The translations under genes and the position numbers were made by a program. The notes beneath the pieces were generated by a model. It was not told the DNA's origin. It saw nothing but the letters and a program-made list of their open reading frames with translations, and made no database searches. This document shows, one piece after another, positions 40,001 to 50,000 of a stretch of DNA of 64,000 bases; the stretch's first letter is position 1; each line of letters opens with the position of its first letter. The DNA comes from Chrysaora quinquecirrha (Eukaryota > Cnidaria > Scyphozoa > Semaeostomeae > Pelagiidae), in assembly GCA_014526335.1 (NCBI GenBank), contig JACTAT010000358.1:529210-593209 (forward strand), written 5' to 3'.

Positions 40001-40883
40001 AGTTTAATCAAAAGCTTACTGCGACCAACCGACCCAACTATCATAAAAAAGTCTCTTTCTTATAAAAAATTTGTAGAATAGCTTTGATCTTTTGGCCTAC
40101 AAGTCGAGTTAACTAACTAAGGAGACTTTACCAGGGTTCTTAACTCTGAGCAGAAAAATCACATTAAAATAACATTTAAATTTTTATTCTTCGAACGAGA
40201 GGTCATATGTTCGTAAGTCTAACGTCCTTCTTTAGAGTTTATTCTCCTATAGTATTCCATTAGGTTCAGTTCAAGGTTGAATGAAAATAGCACAACATAT
40301 CATATCATCATATCATTTTTATTTGTAGAATACAAAAAATCTATTATAAGTATAAGAAATCTAAAAATCTAGAAAAATGCGTATTCTACGCGACCTAAAA
40401 AAGCAATGCTTATCTTAGACCGGCTTCAGGTGGGGTCAAGTGCCACTCGAGGAGGTCATTAACATCATAGTGATTTTTCGATAGCATTTCACAGGGACTT
40501 TCAAAAAAATTTTGGTAAACGGTTGTTTTTTGCTGCGTTCGTGAAATACGGGGGTCAGAAAACCAGGGGTCGACATCGACAAAAATATTGACAGGGAATT
40601 TTTCGCAACATTCTAGCAAACTGGGTAACCGGAATTTTAAAGTAGGTTTGGACTCTTTGGTGGTGGGTGGTCATTATGTCCGAAGGACATAATGAGAGGG
40701 TGTTTGTGGAACGCATGTATGGATATATGTATGTATAGACGCTTTTTCTTGCCAAAATGTAACAAAAGAAAAACCACAAATATGAGGAAGTAACTTTTGA
40801 AGTCGCCGTAAATGGATGTTATGCATACCAATTATTTGACAATTAGATGATGATGACTGGCATGACGATGATGATGATGGGGG

Positions 40884-40917
<34 letters not shown>

Positions 40918-47000: not shown

Positions 47001-50000
47001 GTACTTCGCTCTATTCAGCTCAATCATATTACCATTCTCAGGGAAAGTAAGCAGAAAATGTTTTATCTTTTTTATCTTTTTCAACATTCATAGTAGTTCG
47101 GAACCCTAGCTGCATCGCATTAGAAATTACGAGCATTCGTCGTAATTTAAGGTTTGAAATGACAAAAATAAGCGTAAGTGACCGAGAACATGATGCTTTT
47201 ATTCTAAAAGTAACGCTGAACACATAAAAAGAAAAATTTATGCACGAAACGGTTAAGACTCAAAGTCAAAATATCAGTTTTTCGTTTTGATGACGTCACA
47301 CACATTTCGAATCGTAATAACTTCTGAGTAATAAGCCAAATCGAATTGGTGTTTTATAATTTTTTGCTCCATTTGAGATGTTTTTTTTTTTCCATCAATA
47401 TCATTAAAAACACAAAATTCAAAAGTCAGATTTTTACTGACCGTAACTTTTCTACGTCATCGATGACGTCACAACCAGATGACGTCACAACCTTTGATTT
47501 GCCAGAATGTTTCCAAGCCTTAAAATGACCACCCACCACCAAAGAGTCCAAACCTACTTTAAAATTCCGGTTACCCAGTTTGCTAGAATGTTGCGAAAAA
47601 TTCCCTGTCAATATTTTTGTCGATGTCGACCTCCTGGTTTTCTGACCCCCGTATTTCACGAACGCAGCAAAAAACGACCATTTACCAAATTTTTTTTGAA
47701 ATTCCATGTGAAATGCTATCGAAAAATCACTATGTCATTAATGACCTCCTCGAGTGGCACTTGACCCCACCTGAAGCCGGTCTATCTAGTTTAGGCCGCA
47801 AATTAAAGTTAAAAATACATGAAACTAAAAAGAAATACAGGATACATCAATAACACTAAAATTTTAAGATACTAATAATCTTTCACATATCCATTTTCAA
47901 AACTATGTATATTTTGTTTTTATTTTGTTTTTATTTTCATTTTGTCATTTTTTTTTACTTTTTTTGCTACTGCTACATATAACTAAACAAAACAAGAGTA
48001 AAGCGAATATTGAATTAAGCCTTCAATCTACCATATTTTCAGAACGGATTTTTTGTAGAATATAACTGGGATAAGTTACGATTCATAAGCAGAGATCATG
48101 GTCTCTTTTACTTTGCTGCAGAAAGTTTTATGCTTTTGAATGATCTTTAAGGAGGGAGTAAGCCTGTTCCATAGGCGAGCACTTACGTTTTTTAGAGTGA
48201 GATCTCCCCACTTCTTTTTAGATTTAACAACTTTATAGTAGACGACACTAGACGTGCTACATTAGACTTATTACATTTCCTTCGAGTCTTCCTATGTGGA
48301 GTAGCGGAAATTACGACAATTTTAATAAGTCTGGTACCACACTCATAAAGTTCAACCAGGTTCGTCATTTGTGTGAGATAAAAAACTGACATGGAAACGA
48401 GCTACTGATTATACTGATGGTTCATATGCTCTTTAAATCTCACAGAAAAGCGAAAATTATTTCAAGACAGTTGCTATGCACAGCTGCTTAGCCGAAGGGT
48501 GCTATATATGCTCTTTAAATCTCACAGAAAAGCGAAAATTATTTCAAGACAGTTGCTATGCACAGCTGCTTAGCCGAAGGGGCACTGGGGTTGTTGCCCC
48601 TCCAGTCATCGCCAAGATGGGTCTTAGGCAGGACATATGCTCTAATAATCTAACAAAGTGGGTAATGTTTAGTTTCTTCCTGTGGTTTGGTAGAACAAAC
48701 TGCGCTCTTTCAGAAAATGCCAAGCGCCATTTCAGCAATTGTCCTGAAATCACGTGATCGATGACGTCAGAACTGCGACAAAAATGCTTTTCTATGACTC
48801 ATAAATCGTGTTCTATAGCACCTACAGTCGTGAATCTTGCATATTTATACTGGGCATAAAAAGATCTTTCGATTGATGTATCAATTTTATGATATGCTGA
48901 CATCAGCAATTTTGATTGATGAGGTCACTATTTCATAAAACAAAAATATTGAAAATCGTAATGTATTGAAAATATTTATCCGAACTTTTAAATTACTCAC
49001 AAGCGAGGGGCAATTCACTACATTTGGAATCTCGTACGTCCTTTGCTAGGATTCCCGGGGATTCCTATTGTTTTCATAGAAATCCCTTAGAAATCCTTTT
49101 GTTGTACACTCTATTAAGGAGTGATTTTCCCTTCGCTCACAAGTAGTCCAATTTTGCGGCAAGGGTTCAGTCCTCAAGTCAGTTTGCAACCAGAAAACCC
49201 ATGAAGGCTGCTGCATGGTTACGGAATTACCAGGACAACAGATAATACAACATGGAGGCGTGGAATCAAATGACAATGGTGAATGCATGACACAAAGTGG
49301 TCAGCAATTAACATATTAAAAAGTAAAATATTGCAGGGGATAGAACATCTCTTGTCAAATGACATGCTGTTAGAGACAGCATGACACACAAATGTATTTC
49401 ACAATATTTTGGACTAACCAAGTTTATTCTGAAGCTTTTCGCCGAGGGAGCTATTTAATTTCTAAGATATCTTTATTCGTTTTCTCGTGATGTACCCTCA
49501 TGGAAAAATCTTCTTTTTTGCGATGTACCAACTCGGATGACTCTCAGAACTGTTTACTGTGCAAAAAGACAATCAACAAGAGCCAGAAGAGCCAAGAGCA
49601 TGGAAAGCAAGGTTGGTCAAAATTCAAAGACACTGCCAAACAGTGGAGTGAGCTTGATATCGATTAACATGACCCATACTTCTTTTTTGGACAAGTCTTT
49701 TCAGATGTGAAAGATTCCCCGATTCCATTTGGCAAGGTCCATAGGACTTGCAGAATTGATTTCGATACAAAACTAAAACGTTATAAAGTAAGATATCATC
49801 GTTTGAACGAATTTCAAGACGACATAGATAATGCAGCCAATCTACAAAAAGTTCCTGAAGAACAAAGATTATCTTGAGTAGCAAGGAAACAAGTTGCTAA
49901 AGAATGCTTCATATGCGCCGAGAGACGTGTCTCTGATGAAAGGCCTTACAATGAAGGTGGCCTTGCAAGGTGTGAACAATTGAGTTCAAAGCAGAAGCTT

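Follow-up and report, generated by a model that had tools for sequence, protein, structure and literature searches.

A decayed copy of a Rep/tyrosine recombinase element family with GAT-repeat targets in the genome of a scyphozoan cnidarian

The window analysed here is a stretch of 64,000 nucleotides from the scyphozoan cnidarian Chrysaora quinquecirrha (GenBank assembly GCA_014526335.1, 328 Mb; contig JACTAT010000358.1, here C366, positions 529210-593209). At window positions 41079..45810, on the forward strand, lies a decayed copy of a mobile element with two genes, one for a replication initiator (Rep) of the type found in circular Rep-encoding single-stranded (CRESS) DNA viruses and one for a tyrosine recombinase. 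The copy begins with CCATTAG and ends with AATG plus TTGATGA, a proposed crossover core (45800..45810, forward strand). Between these ends, which are common to other copies, it holds a TATA-box-like sequence 5' of the Rep gene (41135..41142, forward strand; read directly, with a TATA stretch also in families B and C), the Rep gene itself (41198..42238, forward strand), a palindromic array (42470..43290) and the recombinase gene (43495..45181, reverse strand), so that the two genes are convergent. Both are split over frames (Rep pieces at 41198-41707 and 41729-42238, recombinase pieces at 43728-44456 and 44360-45208), and this copy is broken. It is flanked by a GAT microsatellite on the left (40847..41078) and by a GAT-rich remainder on the right (45811..45841), both read directly on the forward strand. 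The window copy forms family A together with locus L049 on contig C225, which matches 41079-45810 at 98.6% identity from first to last base. Families B (L051) and C (L052) retain the same order of Rep, palindrome and convergent recombinase.

The Rep gene is recognized by its open reading frames (ORFs), by a match to Pfam Viral_Rep (E 4.5e-6), by sequence similarity to the Rep of porcine circovirus 2 (PCV2; E 0.002) and by the circovirus Rep fold of a relative, P0008. Intact frames have 345 amino acids in L049 and L051 and 351 in L052. The protein has an HUH-fold domain, and AAA+ matches cover about residues 182-333, its superfamily 3 (SF3)-type helicase part. Walker A (GNSGKT) is present in all four copies checked, motif C was identified by eye, and motif III reads YCVR or YCMR rather than YxxK. 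With the intact 345-residue Rep of this genome as the query, six relatives were found in protein databases. Searches with pieces of the protein returned little: the N-terminal piece had no relative at E 0.001 among 5.8 billion proteins; taken from the broken copy, it also had no match in a single scan of viral contigs; the helicase piece matched merely USP15 in the PDB (E 0.35-0.38); and PHROGs gave only matches at E 0.02 or worse.

The second gene encodes a C2H2 head, a tyrosine recombinase and a Myb/SANT tail, in that order. Its fold was recognized via a relative (top rows XerA and Cre), and the R-H-R-Y catalytic motifs are present in all four copies checked. In the C225 copy the Myb/SANT tail is in frame and scores 24.3 bits with Myb_DNA-binding, just short of the 24.4 cutoff; the in-frame end of that copy was used to place the stop in the window. 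A relative occurs in Actinostola. The Pfam scan assigned no recombinase family, a PDB search with recombinase profile A1 returned nothing, and the N-terminal piece had no relative in the genome-contig collection. A sequence-only reading of this locus had proposed a rolling-circle Rep and a tyrosine recombinase with a Myb/SANT-like tail, convergent around a palindromic array. The arrangement and the recombinase with its tail are borne out, and so are the Viral_Rep match and helicase motifs of the Rep; the ‘HUH’ motif itself lacks its histidine.

The array between the genes (42470-43290) folds at z -28.65 (20 shuffles), and the palindrome is retained in families A, B and C with 79-82% self-complementarity. 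It carries iteron-like TGGGCTT/AAGCCCA repeats: 15 of the 16 such motifs in the window element lie inside it, as do all 13 in L051. Both genes are under purifying selection between families. For the Rep, the ratio of nonsynonymous to synonymous differences per site (pN/pS) is 0.17-0.26 in the 10 pairs of five copies from families A-D, with pS near saturation; for the recombinase it is 0.12-0.18 when A is compared with B/C. The two halves of the element have partly separate histories. From the palindrome into the recombinase gene, families B and C share 99.3% identity (C then has a deletion), and at the right end 97.5%, but just 69% across the Rep half. The Rep halves have therefore likely been exchanged near the palindrome.

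Rep, palindrome and recombinase recur together across the genome. The Rep piece has 81 matches within its own genome; after removal of weak rows and of further fragments belonging to a place already represented, 55 of these 81 Rep rows and 71 of 140 recombinase rows entered the pairing tables. At 34 of the 55 Rep places the nearest recombinase is convergent and less than 6 kb away, and all 34 are among the 40 best. The other six of these 40 comprise two with a partner at 6-9 kb and four that lack one up to 15 kb; among the 15 weakest, no place has a recombinase inside 6 kb. No paired Rep place has a same-direction nearest partner. In L049-L052, the ORFs of at least 150 amino acids are the Rep, the recombinase, simple-repeat frames and one 166-residue frame leaving the right end of L052, with no further protein-like ORF of that length from an ATG.

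Some members depart from this layout. L042 and L043 (C439:50411 and C439:76727) are internal deletion derivatives in which window positions 41675 and 44157 are joined and the left end is kept; the flank common to both likely reflects a segmental duplication. A class of recombinases (33-37% identity) without a Rep match close by lies at G000:C332:205786, C171:264304, C25:159912, C179:578222 and C295:511492, and possibly consists of Rep-less cousins. Distant Rep matches (28-33%) with open frames of at most 317 amino acids, at G000:C133:152816, C133:140968, C133:150019, C102:828996, C195:2524, C132:25387 and C117:369112, may represent a second Rep lineage in the genome. A reading frame containing C and H residues lies just inside the right end (L052:2874-3374; window 45690-45800); it is alike by eye in families A-C and may be a small gene or merely conserved end sequence.

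The ends of the element are fixed. On the left, TGA directly precedes CCATTAG at 18 of 20 Rep loci; one locus has GG in its place, and at one the end was not found. On the right, AATG is followed by TTG(A/G)TGA, the form of the window copy, at all ten loci where this end was located (window, L049-L052, L059, L062, L063, L065 and L066), that in L050 being the right end of the adjoining family-B copy. It was not seen in nine fragments (L053-L058, L060, L061 and L064), which probably end before it. A short direct repeat thus stands at both ends, TGA on the left and TTG(A/G)TGA on the right. The core is sometimes incomplete, as in L052, which begins after AAGTTGA and not TTGATGA. Apart from 4-bp half-sites (AATG/CATT) and weak similarity, the ends, CCATTAG on the left and AATGTTGATGA on the right, have no terminal inverted repeats.

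The flanks of these ends point to a preferred target. With L042 and L043 counted as a single insertion (common flank), a GAT-rich stretch of 40 bases precedes the left end in 17 of 19 cases, against 0.4% of 20,000 random 40-mers from stretches around the terminal inverted repeat element described below. The two exceptions are L031, preceded by the right end of a family-B copy, and L044, whose flank contains an ATC run and ends in CGATGATGA. Furthermore, the genome contains two instances of GAATGTTGATGACCATTAG, the sequence expected of joined ends, and none of its reversed control. One instance is an exact tail-to-head junction of a B and an A copy (C366:182185); the match tables place the second (C290:547601) between a recombinase/Rep pair and an additional Rep match.

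Because Rep, palindrome and recombinase recur together with fixed ends of their own, we treat them as one mobile unit, and we consider it probable that window 41079-45810 is a decayed copy of a two-gene element family that targets GAT repeats, moves as a recombinase-driven circle and is replicated by the Rep from the palindrome. The recurrence of the unit, its fixed ends, its GAT targets, the purifying selection on both genes and the two exact tail-to-head junctions are established. The recombinase would excise the element as a DNA circle and re-insert it into GAT repeats. Crossover would take place, as proposed for Cryptons, in the core TTGATGA between the AATG and CATT half-sites, giving joined ends of the form AATG-TTGATGAC-CATT, and the C2H2 and Myb domains may assist binding of the attachment (att) or target DNA. 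The Rep, in turn, may bind the TGGGCTT repeats and would likely replicate the circle from the palindrome before re-insertion. We favour an initiator that binds and unwinds DNA, like papillomavirus E1, whose fold is related, over one that nicks for rolling-circle replication, because the HUH histidine is missing from motif II and both Walker A and motif C are apparently intact.

Several observations weigh against this reading. Motif II of the Rep reads LKCLNGY or KWLNGF, and P0010 and P0011 are without the tyrosine as well; nicking is doubtful since the HUH histidine is missing. The recombinase model is weak (predicted local distance difference test, pLDDT, 63.8), its best fold Z is under the caution level set for helical proteins, and Foldseek alone found nothing at E 0.001. 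Two near-identical recombinase pairs have pN/pS of 0.93 and 0.62 on few changes, as in decaying copies. Of the 71 recombinase places, 34 are the nearest partner of no Rep place within 15 kb; they range from fragments and well-kept copies (72-78% identity) to the 33-37% class and include C389:414043, C279:1007440, C146:3686893 and C332:205786, and two lie on contigs only 16 and 26 kb long. Such partnerless recombinases may mean that the Rep is dispensable, or that their Reps are too diverged or off the contig. Half-site symmetry is weak past AATG/CATT. The circle itself was not observed, the assembly holding tail-to-head junctions only, and the junction on C366 unites two different families, so it reflects insertion beside an older copy and no concatemer. 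Finally, no empty site was found, although no direct search was made and the DNA search passes over simple repeats.

Some of these points would also fit an element moved by the recombinase alone, in the manner of Cryptons, with the Rep retained as a passenger or as a regulator, bound to the palindrome but not replicating DNA. The absent motif II histidine, the 34 recombinase places without a Rep partner and the 33-37% class without a Rep match nearby (e.g. C332:205786) all agree with it. We nonetheless regard this explanation as unlikely, given that Walker A is kept in all four copies checked, that the Rep is under strong purifying selection between families and that a palindrome with iteron-like repeats has been maintained beside it. 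Less probable still is an integrated CRESS-type virus that acquired a recombinase and has since lost its capsid gene. CRESS Reps are the nearest to this Rep, and the available text of PMC11071296 describes CRESS integrations at high copy number in sea anemones. Against a viral origin stand the lack of a third protein-like ORF of at least 150 amino acids in L049-L052, the common ends and layout of families A-C and the lack of a viral-contig match in the single scan mentioned above.

The sequence-only reading had instead placed the boundaries of the unit at a pair of terminal inverted repeats (TIRs) of about 260 bp, either as a chimera of virus and transposon that moved as one or as a non-autonomous TIR element that later received two insertions. 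The TIRs exist, at 40416..40675 (forward strand; inverted-arm search and genome copies) and 47524..47784 (reverse strand), and so does the identical TCT flank (40413-40415 and 47785-47787, read directly). Their arms align as 40416-40567/47633-47784 at 95% and 40559-40675/47524-47640 at 97%. The left TIR gave 41 matches in the genome (best 40 of 292 candidates scored), from which 20 TIR stretches were fetched. Both termini were located in 14 copies, which measure 2.7-3.4 kb; typical ones have inverted arms of about 785 bp and then the sequence starting at window 45842, so that 45842..47784 (forward strand) is the right part common to such copies. Seven of the 14 have an identical 3-bp flank and seven differ; L024 and L025, among the former, have a common left flank and may be one insertion. 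In two other copies (L012 and L013) the left and right flanks are mutually reverse complementary, a pattern that an inverted duplication would produce, as would misassembly around a fold-back element.

None of the 20 fetched TIR stretches contains Rep or recombinase (tblastn), and among the flanks of about 1.5 kb around 20 Rep loci, TIRs were found at the window copy only. The TIRs are thereby ruled out as ends of the Rep/recombinase element. The genes and array do move as a unit and are kept together elsewhere, as that reading had envisaged, but without these TIRs. What that reading had named as its refutation is seen, with the fetched TIR copies gene-free and insertion boundaries inside, except that these inner boundaries (41079 and 45810) enclose both genes jointly rather than either one. 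That the TIR element mobilizes Rep and recombinase as its own genes is consequently very improbable, even though TIRs and TCT duplication do flank the gene set here; in the flanks read, the other 19 Rep loci have none. Here the left TIR extends to 40675, and there the arm of a third, highly repeated family begins (40674..40846, forward strand; 995 candidates in the genome, the best 40 scored) and runs into the GAT microsatellite. The element would have landed in this GAT repeat beside the third repeat. The TIR element around both provides the outer boundaries and is likely only a place of insertion, with no part in Rep/recombinase movement. Nor is the 7.4-kb copy an autonomous member of the TIR family, since what it has beyond the others is the third repeat plus the Rep/recombinase unit. 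The arm of the third repeat starts at the palindrome CATTATGTCC-GAA-GGACATAATG and ends at the GAT microsatellite; an inverted pair of this repeat, about 1 kb apart, lies at C467:6698591-6699592.

Chance neighbours, that is, an unrelated viral Rep insertion and a Crypton side by side, can be dismissed as hardly credible: the partly separate histories of the halves in B and C lend this some colour, but the convergent partner within 6 kb at 34 of the 40 best Rep places refutes it. Elsewhere in the window, the Pfam scan found a 7tm_1 receptor, and a large ORF set at 50005-54243 with weak DUF6589 similarity (24.5 bits, cutoff 27) is perhaps another mobile element.

A wider proposal, on which we are evenly divided, is that the family represents a new class of integrating replicon, in which an E1-like CRESS Rep that has lost nicking acts on a giant palindrome, a tyrosine integrase targets GAT microsatellites, a replicating circle alternates with insertion and Rep modules are swapped at the palindrome. 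Whether the element deserves a class of its own is likewise an even chance. To our knowledge, eukaryotic transposons normally have a single mobilization system. The sequence-only reading knew of no described eukaryotic element with this pair of genes, and our literature search agrees: among the papers listed, it turned up no such element in which an integrase accompanies a CRESS-type Rep (Repbase and most of the subscription literature lay outside it), and no co-mention of Crypton and CRESS in the literature searched. The family would tie CRESS viruses to transposons in a concrete way, and it would offer a recombinase that uses microsatellites as target and a Rep without the nicking histidine yet under selection, comparable in this to papillomavirus E1. 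With dozens of copies, some with intact frames, it is also testable.

Among known systems, Cryptons are close in their features. In the available text of Kojima and Jurka 2011 (PMC3212892), Cryptons have a tyrosine recombinase with R, HxxR, H and Y, no TIRs and short direct end repeats, and are present in cnidarians; they encode the recombinase only, and animal Cryptons are described without a C-terminal domain. Our element has in addition a Rep gene, a C2H2 head and a Myb/SANT tail on the recombinase, a conserved palindrome and GAT repeats as targets; the comparison here is one of features. CRESS-DNA virus Reps (circovirus, nanovirus, geminivirus) share the HUH-fold domain, the SF3-type helicase and a length of about 345 amino acids; in the element, by contrast, the motif II histidine is lost, a recombinase is linked and no capsid ORF is seen. 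Papillomavirus E1 may be an analogue in function, the Rep being nearer to CRESS Reps by sequence. Helitrons have a helicase of another type than that of this Rep. Like our element, they are eukaryotic transposons with a Rep-type domain and a helicase, but these form one large RepHel protein, and tyrosine recombinases go unmentioned for them in the available text of PMC6431247. The same text describes rotifer Terminons, giant retroelements at telomeres that also have associated Rep proteins (taken as a hint of circular intermediates), again with no tyrosine recombinase mentioned there. Prokaryotic integrative plasmids and elements akin to integrative and conjugative elements (ICEs) differ in their hosts and in their Rep and target types, and no kinship with them is shown. 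They nevertheless carry a replication initiator and a tyrosine integrase on one circle, which is the same logic as that of our element. Having retained both initiator and integrase, along with fixed ends and a palindrome, the family described here follows this integrative-plasmid logic of bacteria in an animal genome.
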